Shown piece by piece: positions 3,481 to 24,609 of a DNA stretch of 47,420 nucleotides. The notes beneath the pieces are model-generated. The model worked only from the letters and a program-made list of their open reading frames with translations. It was not told the DNA's origin and did no database searches. The stretch spans positions 1-47,420 of the forward strand of contig NZ_REBW01000229.1 in the NCBI RefSeq assembly GCF_007692535.1, in the 5' to 3' direction. The DNA comes from Thioalkalivibrio sp. (GTDB lineage: Bacteria; Pseudomonadota; Gammaproteobacteria; Ectothiorhodospirales; Ectothiorhodospiraceae). Numbering within the stretch: the stretch's first letter is position 1; each line of letters opens with the position of its first letter. A program made the translations under genes and the position numbers.

Positions 3481-3908
3481 TGACCGCGAGAAAGGATTAC
3501 CAGCGCAGCGACCGGGTCGGCGACCAGATGCAGCGGGAACTGGCCGAACTGATCCGGCTCGAGGTCAAGGATCCGCGCGTCGGGATGGTGACCCTGTCGG
3601 GCGTCGAGGTGTCCCGCGATCTCGCCCATGCCAAGGTCTTCTTCACTCAGCTGGGCGGGGAGGAAAAGGGGATCGAGGCGGAAAAGGGCCTGAACCATGC
3701 GGCGGGCTACCTGCGCCGGGCCCTGGGTACGCGGCTGCGTCTGCGCAGCGTACCGACCCTGCGTTTCATCTATGACGATACCCCTGAGCGGGGGGCACGG
3801 CTCTCGGCCCTGATCGATTCCGCGATCGCCGAGGATGAGGCCCGGCACCCCGACGGCGACGCGCCGGAGGGCTCCGGCGACGAGGCCGGCGCCGAGCCCC
3901 GGAACTGA
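3480..3908 (+). CDS. rbfA: Ribosome-binding factor A
   Basis: 142 residues. The start is the ATG that shares its A with the infB stop; a longer in-frame extension upstream lies wholly inside infB and is not used. The KH-type fold is recognisable from the RSDRVGDQMQRELAELI helix, the DPRVG motif, and the VSRDLAHAKVFFT strand-helix. RbfA binds the 30S subunit near helix 1 of 16S rRNA and acts in late 30S maturation. The C-terminal 20 residues are acidic, Gly-rich and probably disordered. Its position between infB and truB is the canonical one. Confidence 0.96.
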   Translation: MTARKDYQRSDRVGDQMQRELAELIRLEVKDPRVGMVTLSGVEVSRDLAHAKVFFTQLGGEEKGIEAEKGLNHAAGYLRRALGTRLRLRSVPTLRFIYDDTPERGARLSALIDSAIAEDEARHPDGDAPEGSGDEAGAEPRN

Positions 3909-3955
3909 CGCCCTCCGCACCCCGGGGTCCGGAAGATCGGAAACGATCCGCCGCC

Positions 3956-4876: not shown

Positions 4877-4900
4877 TTCATGGCATTTGCGTGCTACTAT
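4873..4900 (+). promoter_or_regulatory. Probable extended -10 promoter for rpsO-pnp
   Basis: TACTAT at 4895-4900 is preceded by TG one base upstream, giving an extended -10 (TGCTACTAT). A weak -35 (TTAATT, 4873-4878) lies 16 bp upstream. Transcription would start near 4907. E. coli also has a promoter in the truB-rpsO gap, which supports the reading. It was read by eye only. Confidence 0.45.
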
Positions 4901-5078
4901 TTCGCGCCTTCGCCAACGCCCATGCTGCGAAGGCTTGCGTTCGTGCCGCGCGGCGCTGCGTCCCACCCGGAATCAGGGGTGATTCGGACTGCGGAAGAGG
5001 TGCCGGTGGGAGAGGGTGCGAGGGCCACGCCCGCAGGGCCATACAACCAAGGTTTACGTCTCAGGAGTCAAGCACGAC
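4901..5078 (+). promoter_or_regulatory. Long rpsO leader, possible S15 autoregulatory region
   Basis: About 170 nt would separate the predicted start of transcription from the rpsO ATG. The stretch has no plausible gene. It contains a perfect 8-bp hairpin (GCCTTCGC 4906-4913 with GCGAAGGC 4927-4934) and GC-rich sequence able to fold further before the ribosome-binding site CAGGAG near 5062. Many bacteria control rpsO through S15 binding its own leader. Whether this leader does so is inference. Confidence 0.35.
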
Positions 5079-5348
5079 ATGTCATTCGATACCCAAACCA
5101 AGACGACCATCGTCGAGGAATATCGCCGGGATCCCACGGATACCGGATCGCCGGAGGTCCAGGTTGCCCTGCTGACCGCACGCATCAAGCACCTGATGGG
5201 GCACTTCGAGACCCACAAGAAGGACCATCACTCACGTCGCGGTCTCCTCAAGATGGTCAACCAGCGGCGCAAGCTGCTGACCTATCTGAAGGGCAGAGAC
5301 CAGGAGCGTTACCAGGCGCTCGTGCAGAGCCTCGGTCTGCGCCGTTAA
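5079..5348 (+). CDS. rpsO: 30S ribosomal protein S15
   Basis: 89 residues, exactly the family length. The start is the ATG giving MSFDTQTK, with CAGGAG about 12 bp upstream; a 21-codon upstream extension is in frame but unlike S15. Family features are [13 protein letters not shown], the [16 protein letters not shown] motif and KLLTYLK. S15 is a primary 16S rRNA-binding protein of the platform and forms the B4 intersubunit bridge. It is followed 27 bp later by pnp, as in most proteobacteria. Confidence 0.98.
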
Positions 5349-5375
5349 GTTCACCAAGAAGCGGGAAGCCAAAGC

Positions 5376-7460
5376 GTGTCATACAAGAAGACGTTTCAGT
5401 ACGGAAAGCACACGGTCATCCTCGAGACCGGCGGCATCGCCCGCCAGGCGAGCGGAGCCGTCCTGGTCAACGTGGCGGATACCGTGGTGCTGGTCACCAT
5501 GGTGGCACGCAAGGATGCCGACCCTGGCCGCGACTTCTTCCCGATGACGGTGAATTACCAGGAACGGACCTACGCTGCGGGCAAGATTCCCGGGGGCTTC
5601 TTCAAGCGTGAGGGGCGCCCCAACGAAAAGGAGACCCTGACCAGTCGCCTGATCGACCGGCCGCTGCGACCGCTGTTTCCCGAGGGCTTCAAGCACGAGA
5701 CCCAGATCGTTGCCACGGTCATGTCGATCAATCCCGAGGTGGATCCGGACATTCCCGCGCTGATTGGCGCATCGGCTGCGGTGGCGGTTTCCGGGGTTCC
5801 CTTCGCCGGCCCCATCGGCGCTGCCCGCGTCGGTTACCGGGATGGTGAATACCTGCTGAACCCGACGGCAAGCGAACTGGCGGAATCCGACCTCGACCTC
5901 GTGGTCGCCGGCACCGAGAGCGCGGTGATCATGGTCGAATCCGAGGCCAGCGAGCTCTCGGAAGAAGTGATGCTGGGTGCGGTCATGTTCGGGCACGAGC
6001 AGATGCAGGCCGCCATCCAGGCAATCCGGGAACTCGCCGCCGACGTCGGCAAGCCCTCCTGGGACTGGACCGCGCCGGCGGACGACAGTCATCTCGAGGA
6101 CCGGGTTGCCGGTGTCTCCCGCGATCTCCTGATCGACGCCTATCAGATCCCCGAGAAGCAGGCGCGTACCGATCGCCTGAACAGCCTGCGCGCGAGTGTC
6201 GTCGAGCAGCTGGCCACCGGTGCCGAAGGCGCGCCCTCGGCCGATGCGGTGAAGACCGCGTTCCACGACCTCGAATACCGCATCGTTCGCGACCGGATCC
6301 TGGATGGGAATCCGCGCATCGACGGCCGCGACAACCGCACCGTACGTCCGATCACCGTGCGTACCGGCGTGCTGCCGCGCGCCCACGGTTCGGCACTGTT
6401 CACCCGCGGCGAGACCCAGGCACTGGTGGTGGCGACGCTGGGTACCGATCGCGATGCGCAGGTCATCGACGCAATCGAGGGCGAGCGCCGCGAGCGTTTC
6501 ATGCTGCACTACAACTTCCCGCCCTACTGCACCGGAGAGACCGGCATGGTGGGCTCGCCCAAGCGTCGGGAGATCGGTCATGGTCGGCTGGCGAAGCGCG
6601 GCGTTCAGGCGGTGATGCCGAAGGCAGACGGTTTCCCCTACGTCGTCCGGGTGGTCTCCGAGATCACCGAATCGAATGGCTCAAGCTCGATGGCGTCCGT
6701 GTGCGGAACCAGCCTCGCGCTGATGGATGCCGGGGTCCCGCTGAAGGCCCCCGTGGCGGGAATTGCGATGGGCCTGATCAAGGAGGGCGACCGCTTCGCC
6801 GTGCTTTCCGACATTCTGGGCGACGAGGACCACCTCGGCGACATGGATTTCAAGGTGGCTGGCACTACCGGCGGTGTCACCGCGCTGCAGATGGACATCA
6901 AGATCCAGGGCATCACCCGCGAGATCATGGAACGTGCGCTGGAACAGGCGCGTGCAGGGCGGCTGCACATCCTGGAAAGGATGGGTGAGGAGATCAGTTC
7001 GCACCGCACCGAGATGTCCAGCTATGCCCCGCGCTTCATCACCATGCGCATCAATCCGGAAAAGATCCGGGACGTGATCGGCAAGGGCGGGGCGACCATC
7101 CGCGCGCTGACAGAGGAGACCGGGGCGTCGATCGACATCTCCGATGACGGCAGCGTGAAGATCGCTTCGACCGATCAGGCCGCGGGAGAGGAAGCCAAGC
7201 GTCGGATCGAGGAACTCACCGCCGATGTCGAGGTGGGCCGGGTCTACAGCGGCCGCGTCGTGAAGATCATGGACTTCGGCGCTTTCGTTGCCATTCTTCC
7301 CGGGCGGGACGGCCTCGTGCATATCTCCCAGATCTCGAACGACCGCGTCGAGAACGTGAGCGATTTCCTGACCGAAGGCGATACGGTGACGGTCAAGGTC
7401 CTGGAGGTCGACAAGCAGGGGCGCATCCGGCTCAGCATGAAGGCCATCGAAGCGGCCTGA
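5376..7460 (+). CDS. pnp: Polyribonucleotide nucleotidyltransferase (PNPase)
   Basis: 694 residues. It has two RNase PH domains (about 10-230 and 310-540) separated by an alpha-helical linker, then a KH domain ([17 protein letters not shown], about 560-615) and an S1 domain (about 620-690). The second RNase PH domain carries the phosphate- and RNA-binding residues, including the [11 protein letters not shown] and [12 protein letters not shown] motifs. It degrades mRNA 3' to 5' by phosphorolysis and can add tails; in many bacteria it is a degradosome partner. The start codon is GTG ([10 protein letters not shown]), with GGGAAG upstream. Confidence 0.97.
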
Positions 7461-7534: not shown

Positions 7535-8155
7535 GTGGATCTGGTCAGCATACGCAAGAGCTATCGTCGCTACGCGAGGCACTACGACGTCATCTTCGGG
7601 CGTGTCTTTGCCCAGGGGCGTCGCCTTGCGCTGAAGACACTGGCGCCGGTCTCTGGCAAGCGCGTTCTGGAGGTCGGCGTGGGAACCGGTATCTCGCTGC
7701 CGTTCTATTGCCCGGATGCGGAGGTGGTCGGAATCGACGTCAGCCGGGAGATGCTGGAAATCGCGCGCCAGCGCGTTGCGGATGGCATGTGTCCCGCGGT
7801 CACCGGCCTGGCCGAGATGAATGCCGAACACCTGGCCTTCGCCGACGACAGCTTCGATGCGGTGGTGGCGATGTACGTGGCCTCGGTGGTGCCGAATCCG
7901 GATCGGCTGTTCGCCGAAATGTGGCGTGTCTGCCGCCCCGGTGGGCAGATCCTCGTGGTGAACCATTTCGCGTCGCGGCAGTGGATCCTGCGCAGCTTCG
8001 AGCGCAGCCTGCGGCCGCTGTCCCGCGCAGTCGGATTCCGCCCGGACATGGAACTGTCCGATTTCGTCGCGGTGGCCGGGCAGCAGCCGGTGGCCATCGA
8101 ACCGGCCAGCCTGTTCGGGTACTGGAAGCAGATCCAGTTCACCAAACCCGCCTGA
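7535..8155 (+). CDS. Class I SAM-dependent methyltransferase, PmtA-like
   Basis: 206 residues starting at GTG. The Rossmann SAM-binding motif I is VLEVGVGTGISLP (about 49-61), followed by the acidic motif II VVGIDVS (about 68-74) and DDSFDAVVAMYVASVVP (about 106-122). The N-terminal RKSYRRYARHYDVIFG and the post-motif pattern closely resemble Rhodobacter-type phosphatidylethanolamine N-methyltransferases, which make phosphatidylcholine by three successive methylations at the membrane. That function is inferred from similarity. A ubiquinone/menaquinone-type methyltransferase is the main alternative. It stands alone, 74 bp after pnp. Confidence 0.75.
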   Translation: MDLVSIRKSYRRYARHYDVIFGRVFAQGRRLALKTLAPVSGKRVLEVGVGTGISLPFYCPDAEVVGIDVSREMLEIARQRVADGMCPAVTGLAEMNAEHLAFADDSFDAVVAMYVASVVPNPDRLFAEMWRVCRPGGQILVVNHFASRQWILRSFERSLRPLSRAVGFRPDMELSDFVAVAGQQPVAIEPASLFGYWKQIQFTKPA

Positions 8156-8504
8156 GAGTCAGACCTGGCGCTCGGGGCGGTGAAGGCCTCAGGCCGTCAT
8201 TCGCCATGGAGCGCGGATACAACCTCCCAAGCGCGTGACGCCACGTGGTCCCGCCCGCCGGCCGGCCGATGACGCTGCGCTCTTCCACTCCACCCGCGCT
8301 CCCAGTGGGCTGGCTGCTGCACCGTTCCTGAGCATCTTCGGGGAGCCCCGGCCTGCACCGGCTCCGCGTTGGTGCAGGCCTGCCCCAGCGTTGCCGGGCA
8401 TGCCCGCCCGACGAACGGTAGGGAATCGGGCAGGGTTCTTGCTGGGCTCCGGGTGGGTTAGAGTAGCGGACATTCCGCTTCCCTTTTGCGCGAGGATGGC
8501 CCGG
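8156..8504 (+). promoter_or_regulatory. Intergenic region upstream of the ATP-grasp island
   Basis: 349 bp without a convincing gene; one reading frame is open through it but lacks protein character. It holds a perfect 10-bp inverted repeat (8350-8359 with 8371-8380, 11-nt loop) that may end transcription from the methyltransferase gene. A weak promoter-like pair follows: TTCTTG at 8436-8441 and TAGAGT at 8459-8464, 17 bp apart. It would start transcription about 30 nt before the ATP-grasp gene. Confidence 0.35.
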
Positions 8505-9953
8505 ATGTCGATTGACTGGAAGTCGTATGATCCCGCTCCCTTTTACGACGAACTGATTCAGTCACGCGGCAGGCCACGTCCCGTGGCAAAGAAGCTCACG
8601 GACTATCTCAGTTCGCTGGACGACCAGGAACTGCAGACCCGCAAGCAGGCCGCCGACCACGCCATATTGGAAATGGGCATCAGCTTCACCGTCTACAGCG
8701 AGGGCGAGAACATCGACCGCGCCTGGCCGTTCGACATCATCCCCCGCGTGATCCCGAAGCGCGAGTGGCAGACGGTGGAAAAGGGCCTGGTGCAGCGGCT
8801 GACCGCGCTGAACCTCTTCATCGACGACGTCTATAACGATCAGAAGATCTTTCGCGACAAGGTCCTTCCGAAGTACGTGCTCAACAACTCGAAGAACTTC
8901 CGCGAGCAGTGCAAGGGGATCCATCCCCCGCATGGAGTGTGGGCGCACATCTGCGGTTCGGACCTGGTGCGGGACGGCGACGGCACCCTTTTCGTGCTGG
9001 AGGACAACCTCCGGGTGCCCTCCGGCGTGTCCTACATGCTGGAGAACCGCCAGGTGACCAAGCGGGTGTTCCCGGAAGTCTTCGAGAACTCGAGCATCCT
9101 TCCCGTCGACGAATACCCGACCCAGCTTTTCGACATGCTCGCGTCGATCTCGCCGCGACCGCAGGACTTCCCCGAGGTGGTGGTTCTGACGCCCGGGATC
9201 TTCAATTCGGCCTATTTCGAACATTCGTTCCTGGCCCAGCGTATGGGCGCAGAGCTGGTTGAGGGTGCGGACCTGGTCGTTGGCGACGATGACTGCGTCT
9301 ACATGCGCACCATCCAGGGACTGGAGCGGGTGGATGTGATCTACCGTCGTATCGACGATGAGTTCATGGATCCCGAGGCGTTCAACGCCGAGTCCATGCT
9401 CGGTGTACCCGGCCTGATGCGCGCATGGCGCAACGGCAAGGTCGGAATCGCGAACGCACCCGGGTCCGGGGTGGCGGACGACAAGGTGATCTATGCCTAC
9501 GTCCCGGACATGATCAAGTACTACCTGGACCAGGATCCGATCATCCCGAACGTGCCGACCTACCTCTGTGTGAACGAGAAGGAACGCGAGTACGTGCTGA
9601 AGCATCTGGACGAACTGGTGGTCAAGCCCGCCAACGAATCAGGGGGCTACGGGATGCTGGTGGGTCCACACGCGACCAAGAAACAGCGTGCCGAGTTTGC
9701 GCAGCTGATCAAGAAGGACCCGCGCAATTACATCGCCCAGCCGACATTGAACCTGTCGGTGGCGCCCACCCTCTGCGACGAAGGGCTGGAGCCGCGTCAT
9801 CTGGACCTGCGGCCCTTCGTGCTGCAGGGCGTGCGGACCGATGTGACCGCCGGGGGGCTGACCCGGGTCGCGATGCGCAAGGGCTCCCTGGTCGTGAATT
9901 CCTCACAGGGCGGCGGGAGCAAGGACACCTGGATCGTGGACGAGGAGGCCTGA
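8505..9953 (+). CDS. Circularly permuted ATP-grasp protein (stand-alone)
   Basis: 482 residues from the ATG at 8505, chosen because GAGGA lies 8 bp upstream and because it gives the usual family N-terminus; an alternative ATG is 9 bp earlier. This is the DUF404/DUF407 circularly permuted ATP-grasp family, predicted to be an amide- or peptide-bond-forming ligase. Putative catalytic features are intact: FVLEDNLRVPSG with E166/N168 (ExN metal ligands), VVKPANESGGYGML with K374 and the Gly-rich loop, and LDLRPF with D434. It opens a five-gene same-strand run; its stop is one base from the alpha-E start. Family association with alpha-E, transglutaminase and Anbu is established, but the substrate is unknown. 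Confidence 0.9.
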   Translation: MSIDWKSYDPAPFYDELIQSRGRPRPVAKKLTDYLSSLDDQELQTRKQAADHAILEMGISFTVYSEGENIDRAWPFDIIPRVIPKREWQTVEKGLVQRLTALNLFIDDVYNDQKIFRDKVLPKYVLNNSKNFREQCKGIHPPHGVWAHICGSDLVRDGDGTLFVLEDNLRVPSGVSYMLENRQVTKRVFPEVFENSSILPVDEYPTQLFDMLASISPRPQDFPEVVVLTPGIFNSAYFEHSFLAQRMGAELVEGADLVVGDDDCVYMRTIQGLERVDVIYRRIDDEFMDPEAFNAESMLGVPGLMRAWRNGKVGIANAPGSGVADDKVIYAYVPDMIKYYLDQDPIIPNVPTYLCVNEKEREYVLKHLDELVVKPANESGGYGMLVGPHATKKQRAEFAQLIKKDPRNYIAQPTLNLSVAPTLCDEGLEPRHLDLRPFVLQGVRTDVTAGGLTRVAMRKGSLVVNSSQGGGSKDTWIVDEEA

Positions 9954-9954
9954 G

Positions 9955-10896
9955 ATGCTTTCGAGAGTGGCGGAAAGGCTGTACTGGCTTGCGCGTTACA
10001 TCGAACGTGCCGAGAACACCGCGCGCATGGTCATGTCGTTCAATCTCGTGTCGCTGGACATGCCCAAGACGGTGAAGCTGTCCTGGAAGGGGCTGGTGGC
10101 GGTGACCGGCACGGACGACATCTTCGACGAGCACTACCAGCGCGACGACGAACGCAACTGCGTGAAGTTCCTGCTCGCGGATCACTACAATCCAAGCTCG
10201 GTCTTCAGTTCGCTGAAGTCGGCGCGCGAAAACGTGCGCACCACCCGCGACCTGGTGCCATCGGAGGCCTGGGAGATCGTCAACGAACTCTTTCTCTTCG
10301 CGCGCGACAACATGGATGCGGGCATCGGCAAGCGGGGTCGCTACCAGTTTCTGAGCGAGATCGTACAGCGCTGCCAGACGTTGACCGGCCTGCTGGCCGG
10401 ATGCATGAGCCACGACCCCTCGTATGACTTCATCCGCCTCGGTCGCAACCTGGAGCGGGCCGACATGACCTCCCGCCAGATCGATGTCGGCGCGATCCGT
10501 TTCCTGAAAAAGACCAGCGACGACCCGAGTCCCTACGATGGCCTGCTCTGGACCAGCATCCTGCGTTCCCAGAGCGGCTTCCAGATGTACCGCCAGCACG
10601 TGAAGCGGCGGATCAACGGTGCGGACGTCGTGCGTTTCCTGCTGCAGGACATCCCGTTTCCGCGCGCGGTCGCCCATGCCCTGCGCTATGTACAGGAAGC
10701 CCTGGAGCGTCTGCCGCGCAACGAGGTGCCGCTGCGCCTGGTCATGCAGGCGCGGCGTCATGCATTGGGGGCCGATGTGGATCAGCTGATCTCCGAGGAT
10801 CGGCTGCACGACTTTCTCGACAGCCTGCAGCAGGACATTGCCGAGATCCATGACGCGATCGTCGACACCTGGTTCAGCCTGGAGAGGGCCGCCTGA
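9955..10896 (+). CDS. Alpha-E domain protein
   Basis: 313 residues, a single all-helical alpha-E (DUF403) domain that begins at residue 1 with LSRVAERLYWLARYIERAENTARM. The start ATG lies one base after the preceding stop, so the pair is almost certainly co-translated. The family has no established biochemical activity. It is always found near or fused to circularly permuted ATP-grasp proteins and is thought to work with them. The same domain recurs as the C-terminal half of the fusion protein at 14393-16969. Confidence 0.9.
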   Translation: MLSRVAERLYWLARYIERAENTARMVMSFNLVSLDMPKTVKLSWKGLVAVTGTDDIFDEHYQRDDERNCVKFLLADHYNPSSVFSSLKSARENVRTTRDLVPSEAWEIVNELFLFARDNMDAGIGKRGRYQFLSEIVQRCQTLTGLLAGCMSHDPSYDFIRLGRNLERADMTSRQIDVGAIRFLKKTSDDPSPYDGLLWTSILRSQSGFQMYRQHVKRRINGADVVRFLLQDIPFPRAVAHALRYVQEALERLPRNEVPLRLVMQARRHALGADVDQLISEDRLHDFLDSLQQDIAEIHDAIVDTWFSLERAA

Positions 10897-11019
10897 TTGC
10901 AGGGTGCGCGGCAATGGCACGAAGTCCGGTTCGGACGCGGCTGCCGACCTGATGGTGATGGACAGTACTCCGGCAGCGGGCTTCCGCGCCGGTAAAGACG
11001 ATGAACGGGAGAGCAGGGC

Positions 11020-14000
11020 ATGGCGATACGCGTAGGACTGACGCACCACACCCGCTACGAGTTCGACCGCCTGGTACGCGTGTCGCCGCACGTGATCCGG
11101 CTGCGCCCGGCCGCCCACAGCCGGACGCCGGTCCTCGGTTACTCGCTGAACATCGCGCCCGAGCCGTTCTTCATCCACTGGCAGCAGGATCCGTTCGGCA
11201 ACTGGCTCGCCCGGGTGACCTTCCCCGAGCCGGTTCGCTTCATCGAGGTCAATGTCGACCTGATTGCCGAGCTGACGGTTATCAACCCCTTCGACTTCTT
11301 CGTCGAGAGCTACGCCGAGCAATATCCCTTCGCCTATGACGGCATCCTCGCCAAGGAGCTGGTGCCCTACCTGGAGGTTTCCAAAGCCGGGCCCTTGCTG
11401 CAGGCCTGGCTGGACGAGGTGCCGGAAAGCCACGAGAGCATCGTCGATTTCCTGGTCGAACTGAACCGGCGCCTGAATCAGGATATCGCCTACAGCGTGC
11501 GCATGGAGGTGGGCATTCAGTCCTGCGAGGAGACGCTGGAACGGCGGATCGGTTCCTGCCGTGACTCGGCCTGGTTGCTGGCGCAGATCCTGCGCCACAA
11601 GGGTCTGGCCGCACGTTTCGTCTCCGGCTACCTGGTCCAGCTGAAGGCCGACGAAAAGTCCCTCGACGGTCCCTCCGGGACGGAGGCGGATTTCACCGAT
11701 CTGCACGCCTGGACCGAGGTGTACATTCCGGGGGCCGGCTGGGTCGGCCTGGATCCGACCTCCGGCCTGTTCGCAGGTGAGGGACACATCCCGCTGGCCT
11801 GCACGCCTGATCCGATCTCGGCGGCGCCCGTGACCGGTTATACCGAGGCCTGCGAGGTTTCGTTCGTGCACGACAACCGGGTCCAGCGCATCCACGAGGA
11901 TCCACGTGTGACGCGGCCCTACAGCGACGACCAGTGGGTCGCCATCGACGCCCTGGGTCAGCGCATCGACGCGGAACTGCGTGCGATGGACGTGCGGCTG
12001 ACAATGGGCGGGGAACCGACGTTCGTGTCCATCGACGACATGGACGGCCCGGAATGGAACACCCGTGCCGACGGCCCGGACAAGCGCCGTCTCTCCCGTG
12101 AATTGAGCCGCCGCCTGCGCGAGCGCTTCGCGCCCGGCGGGCTTCTGCATTTCGGGCAGGGTAAGTGGTACCCGGGCGAAGCGCTGCCGCGCTGGGCACT
12201 GGGCATCTTCTGGCGCCGTGATGGCCAACCGGTCTGGCACGATGCGCAATGGCTGGCTGATTTCAGCGAGGACTATGGGCACAACCTGGAGGATGCGAGG
12301 CGGTTCGCCGAGACCCTGGTCGTCAAGCTGGGCCTGACCCGCGACGATCTGATTCCTGCCTTCGAGGATCCCTTTCACGCCGCCTGGTCGGAGGACAACC
12401 TGCCGCTGGGGCTGGACCCGGAAAAGGCGGACCTGAAGGCCCCGGCGGGACGGCAACGCCTCGCGCGCTTCCTGAGCCACGGCCTGGAGAACCCCGCGGG
12501 CTTCGTGCTGCCGCTGGCCCGCGAGTACGAGACCTGGCGGACCGGACCCTGGCCGTTCCGGGACGGCCGGCTGCGGCTGATTCCGGGCGACTCCCCAATG
12601 GGCCTGCGCCTGCCGCTGGATCGCCTGCCCTGGTCGGTGACGCGCGAGGTGGAAATCCAGCCGCAACCCAGGGATCCCTTCGACGAGCCCGGACCGTTGC
12701 CGGTATTCGTTCCGGAATCCGGGGTGGTTCCGGTCCCGCAGCCGGACAGGCCCCGGCCGTCGACCCGGGAGGAGGTGATCGAGATCCCGCACACGGCCCT
12801 GGCCTTCGAGGCGCGCAACGGCCGTCTGCACCTCTTCATGCCGCCGCTGCCCCTGCTCGAGGACTACCTGGCGCTGGTCGACCGCATCGAGACCACCGCA
12901 GCCGAGCTGGGTCTTCCGGTAGTGCTCGAGGGCTACGAGCCGCCGCGGGATTCCCGGCTGCAGCGGTTGATGGTGACACCGGATCCCGGCGTGATCGAGG
13001 TCAATATTCACCCCTCCTCGAACTGGGAGGAGTTGAAAGAGATCATCACCACCCTGTACGCCGAGGCGCGTCTCACCCGTCTGGGCACCGAGAAGTTCAT
13101 GCTCGACGGCCGCCACACCGGGACTGGCGGCGGCAACCACGTGACGCTGGGCGGCGCCACCGCCGCCGACAGCCCCCTGCTGCGGCGTCCGGACCTGCTC
13201 GGGTCGCTGCTGACCTTCTGGCAGCATCACCCGGGCCTGTCGTACCTCTTTTCCGGAACCTTCATTGGCCCAACCTCGCAGGCGCCCCGGGTCGACGAGG
13301 CCCGGCACGAGAACCTCTACGAACTCGAGATCGCGTTGTCCCAGATGCCCGAGGGGGAGTGTGCAGAGCCCTGGCTGGTGGACAGGCTGTTCCGCAACCT
13401 GCTGGTGGACATTACCGGCAACACGCACCGCGCCGAATTCTGCATCGACAAGCTGTACTCGCCCGATACCGCCTCGGGCCGGCTCGGCATTCTGGAACTG
13501 CGGGCCTTCGAGATGCCGCCGCATGCCCGGATGAGCCTGGTGCAGATGCTGCTGCTGCGGACGCTGGTCGCGCGTTTCTGGAGCAAGCCTTACCGGCACC
13601 GGCTGGTGCGCTGGGGAACCGCACTGCACGACCGCTTCCTGCTGCCACACTACGTGGAGAACGACCTGCGCGAGGTGGTGGAGGAGTTGCAGCGAGACGG
13701 TTACCCCTTCGACCTCGAGTGGCTGGCTCCCTTCTTCGAGTTCCGTTTTCCGACCTTCGGCCGGGTGCAGATCGGCGAGATCGAGATCGAACTGAAGATG
13801 GCGATCGAGCCGTGGCACGTGCTGGGCGAAGAGGTGACGCAGTCCGGGACCTCCCGCTTCGTGGATTCTTCCCTGGAGCGCCTGCAGGTGCGGGTGACCG
13901 GTCTGTCGGGGGACCGCTATGTACTGACCTGCAATGGCCGCAGGGTGCCGCTGCGCCCGACGCGCATCCAGGGTACGAAGGTGGCGGGCGTGCGTTACCG

Positions 14001-14379
14001 CGCCTGGCAGCCGGCCGCTGCGCTGCACCCGACCATCGCCGTGCATTCGCCGCTGGTGTTCGATCTGGTCGATACCTGGAACGGCCGCGCCATCGGCGGG
14101 TGTACCTATCACGTGGTGCATCCGGGCGGGCGCAACTACGAGACCTTCCCGGTCAATGCCTTCGAGGCAGAGGCGCGGCGCATGGCGCGGTTCTGGCCCT
14201 ACGGCCACTCGCCCGGACCCCTGGAGCCACGCACCGTGGTGGCCGGCCCGGTCGCCAGCGAGCGTCGTTTCCTGCCCGAGGGCAGCGGAGTAAGGCCGCT
14301 GGCGCCACCGGCCGAGGGCTGGAATCCCGAGTACCCCCACACGCTGGATCTGCGCCGGGGCCCGGAGCCGTCGCAGTGA
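11020..14379 (+). CDS. Large transglutaminase-like protein with DUF2126 domain
   Basis: 1119 residues, typical for this family. Residues 1-90 form the bacterial transglutaminase N-terminal beta domain (IRVGLTHHTRYEFDRLV). The transglutaminase core follows with an intact papain-like triad: C180 in GSCRDSAWL, H229 in DLHAWTEVYIP and D245 in VGLDPTSG. From about residue 300 to the end is DUF2126 (LTMGGEPTFVSIDDMDG, GGGNHVTLGG, LELRAFEMPPH), a domain of unknown function. No signal peptide is seen, so it is probably cytosolic. A protease, transglutaminase or peptide N-glycanase type activity is possible. It lies 123 bp after the alpha-E gene and 13 bp before the fusion gene. Confidence 0.9.
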   Translation: MAIRVGLTHHTRYEFDRLVRVSPHVIRLRPAAHSRTPVLGYSLNIAPEPFFIHWQQDPFGNWLARVTFPEPVRFIEVNVDLIAELTVINPFDFFVESYAEQYPFAYDGILAKELVPYLEVSKAGPLLQAWLDEVPESHESIVDFLVELNRRLNQDIAYSVRMEVGIQSCEETLERRIGSCRDSAWLLAQILRHKGLAARFVSGYLVQLKADEKSLDGPSGTEADFTDLHAWTEVYIPGAGWVGLDPTSGLFAGEGHIPLACTPDPISAAPVTGYTEACEVSFVHDNRVQRIHEDPRVTRPYSDDQWVAIDALGQRIDAELRAMDVRLTMGGEPTFVSIDDMDGPEWNTRADGPDKRRLSRELSRRLRERFAPGGLLHFGQGKWYPGEALPRWALGIFWRRDGQPVWHDAQWLADFSEDYGHNLEDARRFAETLVVKLGLTRDDLIPAFEDPFHAAWSEDNLPLGLDPEKADLKAPAGRQRLARFLSHGLENPAGFVLPLAREYETWRTGPWPFRDGRLRLIPGDSPMGLRLPLDRLPWSVTREVEIQPQPRDPFDEPGPLPVFVPESGVVPVPQPDRPRPSTREEVIEIPHTALAFEARNGRLHLFMPPLPLLEDYLALVDRIETTAAELGLPVVLEGYEPPRDSRLQRLMVTPDPGVIEVNIHPSSNWEELKEIITTLYAEARLTRLGTEKFMLDGRHTGTGGGNHVTLGGATAADSPLLRRPDLLGSLLTFWQHHPGLSYLFSGTFIGPTSQAPRVDEARHENLYELEIALSQMPEGECAEPWLVDRLFRNLLVDITGNTHRAEFCIDKLYSPDTASGRLGILELRAFEMPPHARMSLVQMLLLRTLVARFWSKPYRHRLVRWGTALHDRFLLPHYVENDLREVVEELQRDGYPFDLEWLAPFFEFRFPTFGRVQIGEIEIELKMAIEPWHVLGEEVTQSGTSRFVDSSLERLQVRVTGLSGDRYVLTCNGRRVPLRPTRIQGTKVAGVRYRAWQPAAALHPTIAVHSPLVFDLVDTWNGRAIGGCTYHVVHPGGRNYETFPVNAFEAEARRMARFWPYGHSPGPLEPRTVVAGPVASERRFLPEGSGVRPLAPPAEGWNPEYPHTLDLRRGPEPSQ

Positions 14380-14392
14380 CGCTGCGTTCCCG

Positions 14393-16969
14393 ATGAGCCT
14401 GGCGCAGGGGCAGGCCCAGGGACAGACCGCGGGACGTCAGGGGGATGCCCTGGTCACGGCGCTCGGAGCCTATGCTCCCGTGTCCGGAGACGCCGACGAA
14501 CTGCTTCAGCCGGACGGTACGCCCAGGCCGCACTGGGTACCGTTGTTGAGGGCACTGGGCGCCCACGAAGGCAGCGTGCTGCGCGACATCGGGAGTGAAA
14601 CGCGGCGGCTGGTCGACGAACTGGGCGTGACCTACCATGTCTATTCCGATCCGGTCGGCGTCCAGCGGCCCTGGCCGCTGGACGCGATACCCCATCTTCT
14701 GGATGCCGAGGAGTGGGCCGGGATCGAGAAGGCGCTGGTGCAGCGCGCAGGATTGTTCGAGTGGATCATCCAGGATGTGCTGGGTCCGGGTGAGTTGCTG
14801 CGGGCGGGTATCCTGCCGCCGGAGTTCCTGGCCGCGCACAGCGCCTTTCTGCAACCGGTACGGGGCACGCTGCGGGCCGGTCTCCCGGCCCTGACTCTCT
14901 ACGCTGCCGATCTTGCCCGGGGGCCTGACGGACGCTTCTGGGTGCTCGGGGACCGCACCCAGGCGCCCTCGGGTGCCGGCTATGCCCTGCAGAACCGGGA
15001 GATCCTTTCACGGACCTGGCCGGCGGCCTTCTCGGAACTCGGCGTGCAGGGACTGGGCCCGTTTTTCCGTGGGCTGTACCAGGGCCTCCGTGACCTCGTG
15101 CCCTCGGTGCCGGAGCCGCGCATCGTCCTGCTCTCCCCGGGTCCATTGAACGAGGCCTGGTTCGAGCACGTCCTGTTTGCGCGGCAACTGGGCCTGACCC
15201 TGGTCCAGGGGCAGGATCTCGTATTCCGCGATGGATTCATCTGGCTCAGTACGCTGGGTCAGCTGGAGCGGGTCGACGTGATTCTGCGCCGGGTCGACGA
15301 TGCATGGTGTGATCCGCTGAGCCTGAACCCGGATTCCAGGCTCGGTGTCGCCGGTCTGGTCGAGGCCGTGCGCCGTGGCAATGTCGTTGTTGCGAACGCC
15401 CTCGGTACCGGTCTGCTGGAAAGCCCGGCCTGGCCGGCATTTTTGCCCGCGATCGCCCGGTTTGCGCTCGGTGAGGAGCTCCTGATGCCCTCGGTCGCGA
15501 CCTGGTGGTGCGGCGACCCGGACTCGCTGGAACACGTGATCGCGCACAGCGAGTCCCTTGTGGTCCGCAGCGTTGATCGAACCGAGGGTGGGCGGCCGCT
15601 GTTCCTGGCCGGGCTGCCGGAGGAGGAACGTCGTCGTCTCTGTGTGCAGATCCGGAAGCAGCCGACTCGCTTCGTGGGCCAGGAGTGCATCGGACTGTCG
15701 ACCATGCCCTGCCTGAACGAGGCGGGTTTCCTCGAGCCCCGGCACGGGACCGTGCGGGCCTTTACCTGCCAGTGCCGAGACGGCCACCTGGTGCTTTCCG
15801 GGGGGCTGACGCGCGTTGCCAGCCGCCCCGAAACCCGTCTGGTTTCGAACCAGGAGGGAGGGGTCAGCAAGGATACCTGGGTATTGCGCAGTGCTGGAGT
15901 GGCGCCCCCGCGCGCCGACGCGTTCCCGGAACCGGAACCCGGCGTCAGCCAGCCCGCCAGCCTGCCGCGCCGTGTCGCCGACAACCTGCTCTGGGCCGGG
16001 CGTTACGCCGAACGTGCCGAAGGCCTGATCCGCTGGCTGCGCCTGGTCCTCCGGCGGTTGCAGGTGGCGCGCTTCGAGGCCCGGCCAGGCGATGAGGTCT
16101 CCGGCTACATGTTACGGGCGCTCACGCACCTGAGTGGCAGTTATCCGGGGTTCGTGGGGGCCGAAGGCAAGGGCCGGGATGTCCGTCGGCCGGAGTCGGA
16201 GCTCCTTCGGCTCCTGACCGATGCCCGCGTCCCGGGGAGTGTGCCTTCCGCGCTGAATGCCCTGCACAATACCGCCAACGCCCTGCGCGACCGGCTGTCC
16301 GCGGAGAGCGTGCGCGTACTGACGGGACTGAGGGAGGTCGGGCAGCCCCTGGCGGCCCTGCAGGATCCGCTGGCGGCGGAAGGTATTCTGGACGAACTCA
16401 CGGTGCACCTGCTGGCGCTTTCGGGATTGACCCATGAGAGCATGCTGCGCCATCACGGCTGGCGCTTCATGGATAGCGGACGGCGGCTGGAACGTGGCCT
16501 GATGTTGGTGAACCTCCTGCGCGCGACGCTGGTGGTGCCGCCCGAGCCGCGACAGGCGGTGCTGTTGGGCGATATGGTGCTGGCCTTTGCCGAGAGTCTG
16601 TCCATATTCCGTTCCCGGCCGGGAAACCGGCGCAACGCCCTCGGGCTGCTGGATCTGCTGTTGCTGGAGCCGGACAACCCGAGGGCGCTGATCTATCAAC
16701 TGGACCGCCTGGTGGAGCATGTCGAGCAGTTGCCGCGTCTCGGCCATGGTGAACGCCTGCCCGCGCATGCCCGCCACCTCGAGGAGGCCCGTTCCCGGCT
16801 GCGTCTCGCCGTTGTCGGAGACTGGGCCGAGCCCGAGGGTGGGCTGCGTGCGGATCTCGATGCGCTGCTGCTTCAGCAGCAGCAGGAGCTGGCGGCCTGC
16901 TACCAGGCCATGTTCGCGTATTACCTCGCTCCGGCGCCCACGCTGCCGCTCGTGGCCCCTGCTCCCTGA
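14393..16969 (+). CDS. Circularly permuted ATP-grasp/alpha-E fusion protein
   Basis: 858 residues. Residues about 20-510 match the ATP-grasp protein at 8505-9953, and about 522-850 match the alpha-E protein (LPRRVADNLLWAGRYAERAEG). The ATP-grasp half lacks key residues of its paralogue: the ExN motif is G186-D187-R188 (WVLGDRTQAPSG), the lysine of VVKPANESGG is R392 (VVRSVDRTEGG), and the aspartate of LDLRPF is a threonine near 453 (GTVRAF). The C-terminal GGLTRVA and SKDTW motifs are kept. This suggests a scaffold or a ligase with altered chemistry; similar replacements may be common in the fused subfamily. Its stop overlaps the next start by one base (TGATG). Confidence 0.88.
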   Translation: MSLAQGQAQGQTAGRQGDALVTALGAYAPVSGDADELLQPDGTPRPHWVPLLRALGAHEGSVLRDIGSETRRLVDELGVTYHVYSDPVGVQRPWPLDAIPHLLDAEEWAGIEKALVQRAGLFEWIIQDVLGPGELLRAGILPPEFLAAHSAFLQPVRGTLRAGLPALTLYAADLARGPDGRFWVLGDRTQAPSGAGYALQNREILSRTWPAAFSELGVQGLGPFFRGLYQGLRDLVPSVPEPRIVLLSPGPLNEAWFEHVLFARQLGLTLVQGQDLVFRDGFIWLSTLGQLERVDVILRRVDDAWCDPLSLNPDSRLGVAGLVEAVRRGNVVVANALGTGLLESPAWPAFLPAIARFALGEELLMPSVATWWCGDPDSLEHVIAHSESLVVRSVDRTEGGRPLFLAGLPEEERRRLCVQIRKQPTRFVGQECIGLSTMPCLNEAGFLEPRHGTVRAFTCQCRDGHLVLSGGLTRVASRPETRLVSNQEGGVSKDTWVLRSAGVAPPRADAFPEPEPGVSQPASLPRRVADNLLWAGRYAERAEGLIRWLRLVLRRLQVARFEARPGDEVSGYMLRALTHLSGSYPGFVGAEGKGRDVRRPESELLRLLTDARVPGSVPSALNALHNTANALRDRLSAESVRVLTGLREVGQPLAALQDPLAAEGILDELTVHLLALSGLTHESMLRHHGWRFMDSGRRLERGLMLVNLLRATLVVPPEPRQAVLLGDMVLAFAESLSIFRSRPGNRRNALGLLDLLLLEPDNPRALIYQLDRLVEHVEQLPRLGHGERLPAHARHLEEARSRLRLAVVGDWAEPEGGLRADLDALLLQQQQELAACYQAMFAYYLAPAPTLPLVAPAP

Positions 16970-17862
16970 TGCGATACCGGATCACCCATGCCACCCGGTA
17001 CCGTTACCCGGCCACGGTGCACGGCAGCCTCAACGAGTTGCGGCTCAAGCCGCGAGCCACGCCGTCGCAGAGGCTGTACTCCTTCCAGATCGACGTCGTT
17101 CCGCAGGCCAGCTACCTCGCGGGGTACATCGACGCCTACGGGAACCCGGCCAGCATTCTCGGCATCCAGGAAGCACACCGGGAATGGAGCGTGACCACGG
17201 TATCGGAGGTGGGCAGGGTCGTGGTCGAGGCGGAACTGCCGTTCGATCCACCGCTGCCGCTGATCGAGGCTCGCGAGCGCCTGCGCGGGGATTGCAGGCC
17301 TGCCACGCTGGAGGCGCGCAGCTTCAGTCAGGCTTCGCCGTTACTGCCAGAACTGCCGGACCTGTTGCAGCACGTGGGGCTGACCGTGGACCCAGGGCAG
17401 GGCGTCGAGGCGCTGGGCCTGCAACTGTCGCGCTTCATCTTCGACGAATTCGACTACCGTCCGGGGCAGACCGAGGTCAGCACGCCCCTGAGCGTTGTGG
17501 TCGCGAAGCGCGTCGGCGTTTGTCAGGACTTTGCCCATCTCGCGATCGCGTGCAGCCGCACGTTGGGCATTCCCGCTCGCTACGTGTCCGGATACCTCGA
17601 GACCATTCCGCCTCCCGGTAGGCCAAGGCTCGTGGGTGCGGACGCAACACATGCCTGGTTCGCGCTCTATGATCCGATCCGCGGCTGGCTGGAATTCGAC
17701 CCCACCAACGCCACCGTGCCGGATCAGCGCTACGTGACCCTGGCCTGGGGTCGCGACTACGGTGATGTAGCGCCGATTCGGGGCGTTGTCCGCGGCAGTG
17801 GCGCCAAGCACACCCTGACGGTCTCGGTGGATGTGCAGCGGGTCGAGGAGGCGGGACCGTAG
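16969..17862 (+). CDS. Transglutaminase-like cysteine peptidase family protein
   Basis: 297 residues: an N-terminal beta domain (MRYRITHATRYRYPATVHGSL is the start pattern, about 1-90) and a transglutaminase core (about 150-260). The core has an intact Cys-His-Asp triad: C185 in GVCQDFAHLA, H228 in ATHAWFALY and D244 in LEFDPTNATV. No signal peptide or membrane segment is visible. In these gene clusters such proteins are predicted to cleave or cross-link amide bonds made by the ATP-grasp partner. It is translationally coupled to the fusion gene. Its stop lies three bases from the stop of the convergent anbu gene. Confidence 0.9.
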   Translation: MRYRITHATRYRYPATVHGSLNELRLKPRATPSQRLYSFQIDVVPQASYLAGYIDAYGNPASILGIQEAHREWSVTTVSEVGRVVVEAELPFDPPLPLIEARERLRGDCRPATLEARSFSQASPLLPELPDLLQHVGLTVDPGQGVEALGLQLSRFIFDEFDYRPGQTEVSTPLSVVVAKRVGVCQDFAHLAIACSRTLGIPARYVSGYLETIPPPGRPRLVGADATHAWFALYDPIRGWLEFDPTNATVPDQRYVTLAWGRDYGDVAPIRGVVRGSGAKHTLTVSVDVQRVEEAGP

Positions 17863-17865
17863 CGC

Positions 17866-18669
17866 TCAGCGGTTCGGCTTGGATGCCTGCCTGGATGCGC
17901 GGGCGTGGAACAGGGTCCCGCGTTTCTTTCTCCCCTTCGTCGCCTCCCAATCGAAGCGTGGCAGGTCGATGAAGGCCTTCTTGATGTTGTCGTCCCAGGC
18001 GTGGGTCAAGGCGTGCAGGTAGTCGTTGTCGGACTCCAGGCACAGGTAGTGCTCGAAGGCATAGGATCCCCCTTCATAGACGAAGACCTCGAGTGGAGGG
18101 CCGACGGTGAGGTTCGAGCGAATGGTGGAGTCGATGGACACCAGGGCGCAGCGCGCGGCATCGCCCAGTGGCGTGGACGGAGTAATGATGCGGTCGAGTA
18201 TCGGCTTTCCGTACTTGCTTTCGCCGATCTGCAGGAACGGCGTGTGTGTGCTGGTGGTGATGTAATTGCCCTGCGGGTATACGCGATAGATTTCCGGCTC
18301 GTCACCCTGGATCTGGCCGCCGATGATCAGCGTCGCCTCCGCGACGATGCCGGATTTGGACAAGGCCTCCGAATGCTTCTCCTGTTCCTCCCGGTTCACC
18401 CGGCCGAGATACTCGGCCGCCTCGGACATGTGGCCGGCGTCTGCGAAACTGCCCTCCACGCCTTCCTCCATCTCGCGTTTAAGCCGGTTGACCACCGCCT
18501 GGGTGGTCGCGAGATTGCCGGCCGTGAGCACGACGAACAGACGCTCACCCTCTGTTTCGAAGGTGTGCATTTTGCTGTAGGTGCTGACCTGGTCCACCCC
18601 GGCGTTGGTTCGCGAGTCGGAGGCGAACACCAGGCCGTCATCGAGCTTGATCGCAACACAGTAAGTCAT
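17866..18669 (-). CDS. Anbu, proteasome-type N-terminal nucleophile hydrolase
   Basis: 267 residues from the ATG at 18669 (MTYCVAIKLDDGLVFA), with no propeptide. The reading frame runs 99 codons further upstream but that part has no protein character and would cover the promoter. The proteasome-type triad is present: Thr2, Asp18 (ASDSRTNAG) and Lys33 (TYSKMHTF), so Thr would become residue 1 after Met removal. Anbu is a bacterial relative of proteasome beta subunits and HslV that assembles into open helical rings. Peptidase activity has been hard to show. The C-terminus is a basic tail (GRKKRGTLFHARASRQ). It converges on the ATP-grasp/transglutaminase genes, the known family neighbourhood. 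Confidence 0.93.
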   Translation of the reverse strand: MTYCVAIKLDDGLVFASDSRTNAGVDQVSTYSKMHTFETEGERLFVVLTAGNLATTQAVVNRLKREMEEGVEGSFADAGHMSEAAEYLGRVNREEQEKHSEALSKSGIVAEATLIIGGQIQGDEPEIYRVYPQGNYITTSTHTPFLQIGESKYGKPILDRIITPSTPLGDAARCALVSIDSTIRSNLTVGPPLEVFVYEGGSYAFEHYLCLESDNDYLHALTHAWDDNIKKAFIDLPRFDWEATKGRKKRGTLFHARASRQASKPNR

Positions 18670-19810: not shown

Positions 19811-21769
<1,959 letters not shown>

Positions 21770-21934
21770 CTCTTGCCTCCAAATGGTCCAGGTCATGGTT
21801 GTTCGAGGGACCGTCGGCGCGGCCCCTGGTTTTTACGTGCTCTGGCATGCGCGAGCGGCTCCCCCTGACGCCACTGCTCAACCAACGAGGATAGCATGTG
21901 CCATGAAGTCTGCCCGCGCATTCCGCAACCCGTT

Positions 21935-22642
21935 TCACCACAGGCCTCCGGGCCGGTGCAGCACCCGGTGCAGCGGCAGCGGACGTCCCTCGGCCCGGTG
22001 GGTGACCTGTGCGGCGAACAGTTCTGCCGCGGCCAGTGCGTCCAGCAGCGCGTCGTGACCGCGGTAGCGGGGCAGGTTGTACTGCTGCCGTAGTGCGTTC
22101 AGCCGTAGTCCCCCCGAGCGCGCCGTCTCCTGTCGCCGCTCGAGTTCCTCCTGCGCCAGCTTGAGCGTGTCCACGGTAGGGATCATGCAGGGGTAACCGT
22201 ATTCCGCGAGACAGGCCCGGTCGAGGAAACCGATCTCCACGGCGGCGTGGTGGGCGAGCATCACGCGGCCTGCCAGTGCGCCGAGCAGATGCGCCAGGGC
22301 TTCGCCCAGGCTGCCACCGCGCGCGGCCTGATCGTCCGTGATCTGGTGAACCACTGCACTGGCCTCCGGAATGTCCCGAGTGGGTCGGACCCAGCGCTGT
22401 TCGGCCGTGGCCAGACGAATGGCCAGACCGTCCATCGCGACCCAGCCGATACTCAGGATCTGGTCCTCCCTGGGATTCAGGCCGGTGGTCTCCAGATCCA
22501 CGGCCAGGAACGGCGTGCTGCTGCAATCGCCGTTGAGGTCCGGCATCCTGCGGCTGAGGTAATCGCGAAGCGGGTTCTGGGGCAGGCGTGCCGCAAGGCG
22601 TTGGCGACGCCAGCAGAATACCCAGGGCCCCGGGCGTATCAC
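21935..22642 (-). CDS. DnaQ-like 3'-5' exonuclease
   Basis: 235 residues from GTG at 22642. That GTG overlaps the stop of the DUF294 gene (GTGA), a coupling signal that decides the start. DEDDh exonuclease motifs are FLAVDLETTGLNP (about 45-57), AHHAAVEIGFLDRA (Exo II) and GHDALLDALAAAELF (Exo III). It resembles the proofreading epsilon subunit of DNA polymerase III, but stand-alone copies beside DUF294 proteins are a distinct, widespread group. Their role is unknown; degradation of oligonucleotides or a signalling nucleotide is a guess. Confidence 0.85.
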   Translation of the reverse strand: MIRPGPWVFCWRRQRLAARLPQNPLRDYLSRRMPDLNGDCSSTPFLAVDLETTGLNPREDQILSIGWVAMDGLAIRLATAEQRWVRPTRDIPEASAVVHQITDDQAARGGSLGEALAHLLGALAGRVMLAHHAAVEIGFLDRACLAEYGYPCMIPTVDTLKLAQEELERRQETARSGGLRLNALRQQYNLPRYRGHDALLDALAAAELFAAQVTHRAEGRPLPLHRVLHRPGGLW

Positions 22643-24571: not shown

Positions 24572-24573
24572 GA

Positions 24574-24609
24574 TCCGAAAAGAATCAGGCCCGCCTTGCG
24601 GCGGGCCTG
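24574..24609 (-). terminator. Rho-independent terminator after the symporter gene
   Basis: On the minus strand a 10-bp stem CAGGCCCGCC/GGCGGGCCTG with a 4-nt GCAA loop is followed by ATTCTTTTC. It lies 17 bp after the symporter stop and should separate that operon from DUF294 copy 1. Confidence 0.8.

Follow-up and report, generated by a model that had tools for sequence, protein, structure and literature searches.

We propose that a six-gene island of Thioalkalivibrio sp. encodes an amide ligase/amidase system controlled by nitrogen limitation, a reading to which we give a probability of about 0.5. The two ATP-grasp proteins of the island seem to differ in kind: the standalone one keeps the invariant residues of its family, whereas the one fused to an alpha-E domain has lost most of them and is probably, as judged from its alignment columns, a pseudo-ligase subunit. 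The island occupies positions 8505 to 18669 of the window, as we call the whole stretch of 47,420 nucleotides that was analysed. Anbu, alpha-E and DUF2126 proteins are widespread and, according to the authors of the papers cited below, without a physiological substrate known to them.

Gene Content of the Island

The features of the island are listed in Table 1. The six genes of the initial annotation were recovered, five of their products by Pfam at scores far above the cut-offs and the sixth, Anbu, by its match to a solved structure. The standalone ATP-grasp scored 555 bits with CP_ATPgrasp_2 and its neighbor 285 bits with Alpha-E, the third gene product 1315 bits with DUF2126, the fusion 443 bits with CP_ATPgrasp_2 and 200 bits with Alpha-E, and the second transglutaminase 78 bits with Bact_transglu_N and 67 bits with Transglut_core. 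NCBIfam offered no name for any of these five ligase and transglutaminase proteins. The anbu product showed a modest match to the Pfam Proteasome family (34 bits versus a cut-off of 22) and a strong one to solved Anbu structures (5loy_A, E 4.7e-78). The gene limits were also as first given, with an ATG at 8505 for the first gene, whose open frame extends upstream to 8235, and anbu read on the minus strand from 18669. The catalytic residues that had been assigned are in place, namely the Cys-His-Asp triads of both transglutaminase domains (C180/H229/D245 in the DUF2126 protein) and the Thr-Asp-Lys set, which together with the relation to solved Anbu places the last product in that family.

Table 1. 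Features of the island, in window coordinates.
Feature	Position	Strand	Basis
Sigma-54-like promoter element GGGCAGGGTTCTTGCT	8428..8443	+	9/11 consensus positions; begins 77 bases 5' of the ATG of the first gene
Standalone circularly permuted ATP-grasp ligase (putative)	8505..9953	+	Pfam; relative of solved structure 3n6x; invariant columns kept
Alpha-E protein, all-helical	9955..10896	+	Pfam; AlphaFold model, mean pLDDT 91
N-terminal transglutaminase and DUF2126 core with predicted glutamine-synthetase fold	11020..14379	+	Pfam; model; structural comparison; triad
Fused CP-ATP-grasp and alpha-E, probable pseudo-ligase subunit	14393..16969	+	Pfam; column comparison
Second transglutaminase-like protein	16969..17862	+	Pfam; triad C185, H228, D244
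Anbu, Ntn-hydrolase, proteasome-beta relative	17866..18669	-	Match to 5loy_A; T1/D17/K32

The third gene had been described as a DUF2126 transglutaminase, and this holds for part of the chain: Bact_transglu_N and Transglut_core are indeed present, but they do not stand alone, being fused to a predicted ligase. The model of the DUF2126 core (pLDDT 73, pTM 0.78) suggests a glutamine-synthetase fold, since each structural comparison gave glutamine synthetases or their homologues in all 50 of the 50 matches shown, the best of them with Z 15.6, an rmsd of 3.8 and 262 aligned residues; in Foldseek the best E-value was 0.026, with none at or below 0.001. Gamma-glutamylmethylamide synthetase and 1-naphthylamine GS are among the structural neighbors listed. 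Seven residues (E660, N662, H707, R804, E806, E826 and R828, in window numbering) are invariant in an alignment of 40 DUF2126 sequences and are candidates for equivalents of the catalytic residues of glutamine synthetase. The DUF2126 protein may be viewed as a glutamine-synthetase-type ligase. For the alpha-E protein, no solved relative was detected by sequence. The best structural neighbor of its model was NasR (4akk_A; Z 10.7, rmsd 5.4, 236 aligned residues; Foldseek E 0.076), but helical bundles reach such Z values by chance, so that a nitrate sensor was rejected as an assignment and kept as a lead only, with no fold assigned.

Predicted Nitrogen Control

Sigma-54-like sites are enriched upstream of the standalone ATP-grasp gene, where they were found in 53/111 regions versus 3.4 in shuffled sequences and 7/111 on the reverse strand. 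When 80 of those regions, all from this phylum, were counted by family, 17 of the 37 families had a site, compared with 4 of 37, which makes nitrogen-limited cells the place to look for the product. The window site is weak when taken singly, as the window has 11 sites with a 9/11 match when both strands are counted. It also speaks against the proposed control that the enrichment upstream of DUF2126 is modest (12/84 versus 2.6, with a shuffle maximum of 7) and that there is none upstream of Anbu (0/28). The exact NtrC box GCAC-N7-GTGC was modestly enriched upstream of the standalone gene (6/111, compared with a mean of 0.9 and a maximum of 4 after shuffling), and so were boxes with at least 7 of 8 positions (31/111 versus 16.6, maximum 26); the 7-of-8 match in the window is close to what chance would give in one region. 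The genome encodes RpoN and one NtrC above its cut-off.

Published data point in the same direction with one exception; the papers given here and below by PMC number are cited from excerpts. A cluster of these families is under NtrC and sigma-54 in Burkholderia cenocepacia (PMC5491218), the genes are induced by nitrogen limitation in Pseudomonas putida (PMC7801951), and in marine metagenomes these families correlate with urea-metabolism domains (PMC3597751). The exception is that an rpoN mutant of P. putida still induces PP_2686-2688 when nitrogen is limiting, with 12.61-fold induction of PP_2686 in the wild type versus 14.16-fold in the mutant, which counts against strict RpoN dependence in that species (PMC7801951). 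In the same table, urea transporter genes that its authors assign to NtrC likewise stay induced in the mutant.

Conservation of the Gene Set and Its Neighborhood

The families could have turned out not to be conserved together in related genomes, and this possible refutation was checked in 80 named loci. In this survey, "next" means next among the six families, so that other genes may intervene, and many loci end at contig ends, which makes the counts of neighbors lower bounds. Going upstream from the fusion, the next gene was DUF2126, in the same orientation, in 54/80 loci, and going downstream it was a transglutaminase in 74/80, a conserved order that bears out the idea of a coherent unit of amide-chemistry genes. 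The run of ATP-grasp, alpha-E and DUF2126 was present in 17/80 loci, and ATP-grasp, DUF2126, fusion and Anbu were all found in 9/80, so that the side-by-side layout of separate and fused forms pointed out in the initial annotation recurs elsewhere. Carrying both ATP-grasp forms is in fact not rare: of the 200 genomes sampled, a hand count gave at least 64 with the fusion, and 63 of these 64 have the standalone gene too; among the 111 genomes with a standalone gene, at most 48 yielded no fusion. Two observations weigh against the system that we favor. Six of the 64 fusion genomes had no DUF2126 match. DUF2126 was found without Anbu in 28 genomes, Anbu without DUF2126 in 34 and both in 35; they are thus often in separate genomes, and Anbu need not act on the product of DUF2126.

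A small peptide gene had not been seen inside the island, and within the limits of our searches no conserved extra open reading frame appeared around 80 related loci either, as no cluster common to most of them was found among frames of at least 60 residues or among those of 20 to 120 residues. The largest neighbor clusters, whose families are not annotated, came from 20, 11 and 8 of 81 sources; smaller ones with a member in the window correspond to IF-2 and a methyltransferase, both shared with close relatives, and the small-frame clusters, from 6 sources at most, resembled shadow frames of larger genes. Separately, a gap-filling gene in Methylobacter-type islands resembles citrate synthase by eye. 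Nor did we find a product established in the literature.

These data bear on two other accounts of the island. The first is amine salvage, in which the ligases would acylate scavenged amines under nitrogen limitation, as gamma-glutamylamide synthetases do, and the transglutaminases and Anbu would free the nitrogen again. It is consistent with the amine-related synthetases among the predicted structural neighbors of DUF2126 and with the nitrogen control, both published (PMC5491218, PMC7801951) and deduced from promoter enrichment. We regard it as doubtful, having in mind that structural likeness does not reveal the substrate and that no neighbor gene is common to most islands, although a gene of amine catabolism may be among the unannotated clusters.

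The second account starts from the proteasome. Pup ligase has a glutamine-synthetase-like fold. By analogy, the ligases of the island would make and attach a non-ribosomal tag, with DUF2126 in the part of the Pup ligase, and Anbu would degrade or de-tag the marked proteins. The predicted fold of DUF2126, the kinship of Anbu with proteasome-beta subunits and the inhibitor bound at Thr1 of the Pseudomonas aeruginosa Anbu (PMC5666114) would agree with such tagging. We nevertheless consider it unlikely: Pup and Pup ligase were not found in this genome by a search that was positive in Corynebacterium glutamicum as a control, 28 of the 63 DUF2126 genomes have no Anbu match, and no conserved small protein was found near the islands. 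Moreover, the peptide substrates tried in the assays reported in the excerpts of PMC6376114 and PMC5666114 were not cleaved; in those of the former, the tested Anbu proteins cleaved none of the substrates tried and pull-downs gave no specific partner within the operon, which also counts against the ligase/amidase system that we favor.

The Fused and Standalone ATP-Grasp Proteins

The separate and fused forms had been taken as equivalent module types, and this equivalence is not supported. The standalone protein of the window keeps the family-invariant E166, N168, D325, D326, K327, K374, GGYG and D434. Five of these residues (N168, D325, D326, K327 and D434) are present in 121/121 aligned standalone rows versus 0/94 fused rows, and E166 in 1/94 fused rows. 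By motif likeness, E166 and N168 may correspond to metal ligands. The asparagine of E-x-N is replaced by arginine in 89/94 fused rows, and the glycine-rich loop is not conserved in them (G380 in 4/94, Y382 in 1/94). Judged by E-x-N, DDK and the GGYG loop as the marks of an active circularly permuted ATP-grasp, the standalone protein would be active and the fused one would not. The alpha-E domain of the fusion has also lost several residues that are invariant in standalone alpha-E proteins.

In the tree, the 121 standalone rows, which include 8 second copies of the same genes (113 distinct), group in a single clade (support 1.0) that contains no fused row. Rows were assigned to one form or the other by the higher-scoring window protein; the statement on the clade rests on a tree without a 251-residue contig-end fragment (G085), which scored as standalone, bears the fused motif and adjoins DUF2126. 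The alignment filters were passed by 80 of 81 fused domains and failed by two partial standalone genes (L069 and L120). A further check covered four more fused genes, two of which are incomplete. None of them has E166 or N168, as was noted also for two more divergent fusions, and D325 is present in one (G126).

The solved structure 3n6x matched the standalone protein at 531 bits (residues 12-478 of 482 aligned, E 2.9e-158) versus 279 bits for the fused one. Profile comparison with relatives of glutathionylspermidine synthetase, made to map the metal ligands, was not significant for the standalone protein (probability 0.4%), the alignment of the fused one reaching 0.1%. It was observed that the short aligned piece sets E-x-N on E-x-N.

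The fused form has a signature of its own, R188, Q190 and E343 in the window protein, which could belong to a rebuilt active site, that is, to a working enzyme with other chemistry or another nucleotide. The strong fixation of R188 (89/94) and E343 (93/94), and the retention of the equivalents of R436 (94/94), D474 (92/94) and K374 (66/94), the first two being common to both forms, are in favor of such an enzyme, but the arginine in place of the E-x-N asparagine and the unconserved loop make it improbable. We therefore prefer to see the fused ATP-grasp not as a duplicate of the standalone enzyme, but probably as a pseudo-ligase subunit, which may act as its partner. We found no literature report of a degenerate ATP-grasp of this kind, although an earlier mention in Iyer et al. 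2009 is possible.

Proposed Mechanism

In the nitrogen-controlled ligase/amidase system that we favor, NtrC and a sigma-54 promoter would drive the first gene and probably the whole operon. Acting together with alpha-E, the standalone ATP-grasp would activate a carboxylate by ATP and join it to an amine, as suggested by its family. The precedent for ATP turnover comes from a relative, the Yersinia bercovieri ATP-grasp protein, which releases phosphate from ATP (PMC6376114), and supports the ATP-hydrolysis assay that had been suggested. The DUF2126 ligase would then make a further amide bond, with a related compound as substrate, and the fused protein, as a catalytically degenerate paralogue, may bind or position the substrate, or join the active ligase in a mixed complex. 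Finally, the two transglutaminase domains and Anbu would cleave or transfer the amide, in such a way that nitrogen is returned or the product matured.

A more specific version is offered tentatively, as possible rather than probable. The two ATP-grasp-alpha-E forms would be an active/pseudo-enzyme pair, in which the fused copy gave up ATP chemistry and became a substrate-presenting or regulatory subunit coupling the standalone ligase to the DUF2126 ligase; two ligases that differ in fold would build an amide-linked, non-ribosomal nitrogen compound, and the transglutaminases and Anbu would dismantle it. Such islands occur in many phyla and, for much of this phylum at least, would be under sigma-54/NtrC control. 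If such a pair exists, single-protein assays of the six-gene form can be expected to leave some of the chemistry undetected. The apparent loss of the ATP-using active site in one of two look-alike ligases makes the role of that protein directly testable.

Comparison with Known Systems

The type of island is already known, as an Anbu operon beside a module of DUF2126 and fused ATP-grasp-alpha-E. The CP-ATP-grasp, alpha-E, transglutaminase-like and Anbu genes lie adjacent as in the Anbu-type amidoligase operon (Iyer et al. 2009, Valas and Bourne 2008, as cited in PMC6376114 and PMC5666114), with an Anbu of the solved type. In contrast to the order of four genes in one operon that PMC6376114 gives as predominant in its excerpts, anbu here closes the run from the other strand, with DUF2126, the fusion and a second transglutaminase domain in between. 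The B. cenocepacia cluster I35_5080-83 has DUF404/407 (ATP-grasp), DUF403 (alpha-E), transglutaminase-like and large transglutaminase-like proteins; Anbu and the fused gene are absent from its table rows examined (PMC5491218), and the control of the window island is a prediction.

An ATP-grasp with transglutaminase-like and protease partners is also found in RloABC, whose transglutaminase is inactive, and RimK/RimB pair an ATP-grasp glutamate ligase with a protease (PMC12239564). These systems differ by an aspartic protease where the window has Anbu, and the degenerate part is the transglutaminase in Rlo and the ATP-grasp in the window. The standalone protein aligns over nearly its full length with 3n6x, a putative glutathionylspermidine synthase, whereas the fused one lacks the E-x-N, DDK and glycine-loop motifs. 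The island of a Thioalkalivibrio sp. MAG (L049) shares the gene order of the window, Anbu again being encoded on the other strand, and no difference in the layout of the six families was seen in the DNA examined, the two fused proteins being 52% identical in their best segment.

The six genes of the island

The presence of the six-gene island described in the initial annotation was confirmed by Pfam for five of the genes and by comparison with solved structures for Anbu, as detailed in the table. The residue check also bore out the intact triads claimed for both transglutaminases and the intact Thr1/Asp17/Lys32 set of Anbu. A single label needed correction, that of the DUF2126 protein as a transglutaminase, since the larger share of the protein is a separate ligase domain.

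Genes of the island, with their positions and supporting matches
Gene	Position	Strand	Evidence
Standalone circularly permuted ATP-grasp	8505-9953	+	Pfam, far above cut-off
Alpha-E	9955-10896	+	Pfam, far above cut-off
Transglutaminase-DUF2126	11020-14379	+	Pfam, far above cut-off
Fused ATP-grasp-alpha-E	14393-16969	+	Pfam, far above cut-off
Second transglutaminase	16969-17862	+	Pfam, far above cut-off
anbu	17866-18669	-	Modest Pfam match; strong match to solved Anbu structures

Upstream of the island, genes for IF-2, TruB and polynucleotide phosphorylase were found (742-7460, +), followed immediately 5' of it by a methyltransferase gene (7535-8155, +), which may belong to the lineage or to the island, since relatives are present in three of the compared loci (L049, L052 and L053). 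The group at 19811-33038 (-), possibly an acetate uptake cluster, encodes acetyl-CoA synthetase, two DUF294/CBS nucleotidyltransferase-like proteins on either side of a sodium:solute symporter, and a histidine kinase together with a sigma-54-type response regulator. The ORF at 43984-45567 (-) joins a flavodoxin-like and a UbiA prenyltransferase domain in one frame, a pairing that, to our knowledge, has not been met before.

Recurrence of the layout

The survey of co-occurrence proposed with the initial annotation was carried out by scanning named genomes with the fused-protein alignment as query, and the families were found to be conserved together. Among the best 80 of at least 586 loci, many of them cut by contig ends, the next of the six families 3' of the fusion was the transglutaminase in 74, and 5' of it a same-strand DUF2126 gene in 54. 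The run ATP-grasp, alpha-E, DUF2126 was present in 17 of these 80 truncation-prone loci (from Gammaproteobacteria, Verrucomicrobia, a Gemmata, a Poribacterium and a Desulfuromonas) and Anbu in 13, while nine carried the standalone ATP-grasp, DUF2126, the fusion and Anbu together, all nine also with alpha-E and transglutaminase genes. The closest of the best 80, from a Thioalkalivibrio genome (L049), has an identical layout, with Anbu likewise on the opposite strand and a fusion 52% identical to that of the window. The six-family layout is therefore recurrent and not special to this window. In three Methylobacter-type islands (L058, L060, L061), a gene between DUF2126 and the fusion resembles citrate synthase by eye.

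An active and a probably inactive ATP-grasp

When 30 standalone ATP-grasp domains were aligned with 80 fused ones, 160 columns showed conservation of 95% or more among the standalone rows; 65 of these columns were kept in at least 90% of the fused rows and 41 in 20% or fewer. The alignment was enlarged to 121 standalone rows (8 duplicates) and 94 fused rows. E166, N168, D325, D326, K327, G380, Y382 and D434 were each present in 121/121 standalone rows; among the 94 fused rows, N168, D325, D326, K327 and D434 were found in none, E166 and Y382 in one each and G380 in four, with D153 retained in 78 and K374 in 66. As a check for selection bias, fusions missed earlier were fetched, two full and divergent (G114, G126) and two cut by contig ends (G085, G153); all four lack E166 and N168, and that of G126 keeps D325. 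In a tree of the ATP-grasp rows, all the standalone ones grouped in a single clade (support 1.0) that contained none of the fused rows.

Degenerate at these positions, the fused ATP-grasp carries other residues that are fixed in it, including R188, Q190 and E343 (window numbering), and the alpha-E part of the fusion retains W11, R14, E17, R18, G163 and E167 in 76 to 81 of 81 rows, having lost E92, W44 and D170 (0/81 each) and W199 (1/81). This pattern looks as though one function was lost while selection for a different one went on. We take E-x-N and the neighbouring residues to be the metal and ATP site, from knowledge of the family; a profile comparison with glutathionylspermidine synthetase relatives gave no significant match supporting this mapping. 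The conserved positions suggest that the two forms are probably an active ATP-grasp and an inactive partner.

Co-occurrence in 200 genomes of the phylum

The standalone-type ATP-grasp (E 1e-100) was present in 111 of 200 sampled genomes, Anbu in 69, DUF2126 in 63 and the fusion in at least 64, by a hand count in which the four genomes fetched as a check (G114, G126, G085, G153) were added to 60 others. A standalone gene was found in 63 of the 64 fusion genomes, the exception (G149) being 74% complete, whereas no more than 48 of the 111 genomes with a standalone gene lack the fusion, so the link is much stricter from the fusion to the standalone gene than in the opposite direction. DUF2126 was present in 58 of the 64.

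ATP-grasp of either form accompanies Anbu in 68 of 69 genomes, but DUF2126 and Anbu coincide in only 35 (28 have DUF2126 alone of the two, 34 Anbu alone), and Anbu is thus tied to ATP-grasp more than to DUF2126. One genome (G094) has an Anbu gene, and no ATP-grasp of the island's family was found in it. In three genomes of one family, f27 (L142 in G076, L143 in G036, L144 in G064), DUF2126 adjoins Anbu with no fused ATP-grasp, so that DUF2126 can do there without the putative pseudo-ligase. Fused genes also occur in three genomes without a DUF2126 match (L141 in G024, L254 in G114, L255 in G126), the last in the order ATP-grasp, alpha-E, fusion, transglutaminase.

Predicted structures of DUF2126 and alpha-E

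A sequence search for a solved relative of the DUF2126 core gave none convincing. With its AlphaFold model (mean pLDDT 73, pTM 0.78), all 50 rows listed in both structural comparisons were titled glutamine synthetase or a homologue, the best with Z 15.6 and rmsd 3.8 over 262 aligned residues; no Foldseek E-value reached 0.001. The core is thus predicted to have a glutamine-synthetase fold, in agreement with the Pfam label 'putative amidoligase' and reached independently of it. The alpha-E model is all-helical and confident (pLDDT 91, pTM 0.90), and its structural-neighbour search gave none convincing, the best neighbour, NasR, scoring under the chance level for helical bundles.

A promoter signal and possible nitrogen control

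For 111 standalone genes, of which the phylum sample supplied 80 and the named loci together with the window 31, the 300 bases 5' of the gene were scored against the sigma-54 consensus TGGCACG-N4-TTGC, requiring GG and GC and counting matches out of 11 positions. Sites of at least 9/11 were found in 53/111, a raw count inflated by kinship of the genomes (by family, 17/37 versus 4/37 in the 80 phylum regions), against 7/111 for the reverse strand, while 100 dinucleotide shuffles averaged 3.4 and reached 8 at most; sites of at least 10/11 numbered 31 of 111 versus 0.3 in shuffles. DUF2126 gene starts gave 12/84 versus 2.6, and Anbu starts 0/28. The window's own site (8428-8443, 9/11) is weak taken alone; its genome encodes RpoN and one NtrC over the cut-off.

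This sequence signal fits reports on nitrogen regulation: PMC5491218 places expression of the same families in Burkholderia cenocepacia under NtrC and sigma-54, and PMC7801951 describes induction by nitrogen limitation in Pseudomonas putida, although an rpoN mutant also shows induction, which counts against sigma-54 control.

Comparison with known systems

Anbu, ATP-grasp, alpha-E and transglutaminase have already been described as an operon, and published speculation has it producing and processing an amide or peptide, or tagging proteins (PMC6376114 and PMC5666114, citing Iyer et al. 2009). According to PMC6376114, the Yersinia ATP-grasp releases phosphate from ATP, Anbu cleaved none of the substrates tested, and a specific partner was not detected. 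Our literature search gave no mention of DUF2126 by name, nor, in print, of an active and probably inactive ATP-grasp pair, a model-based DUF2126 fold or a family-wide promoter signal. The island is a real, conserved system of an already recognised kind; apparently new are these three points, the probable pair, the predicted fold and the family-wide promoter enrichment.
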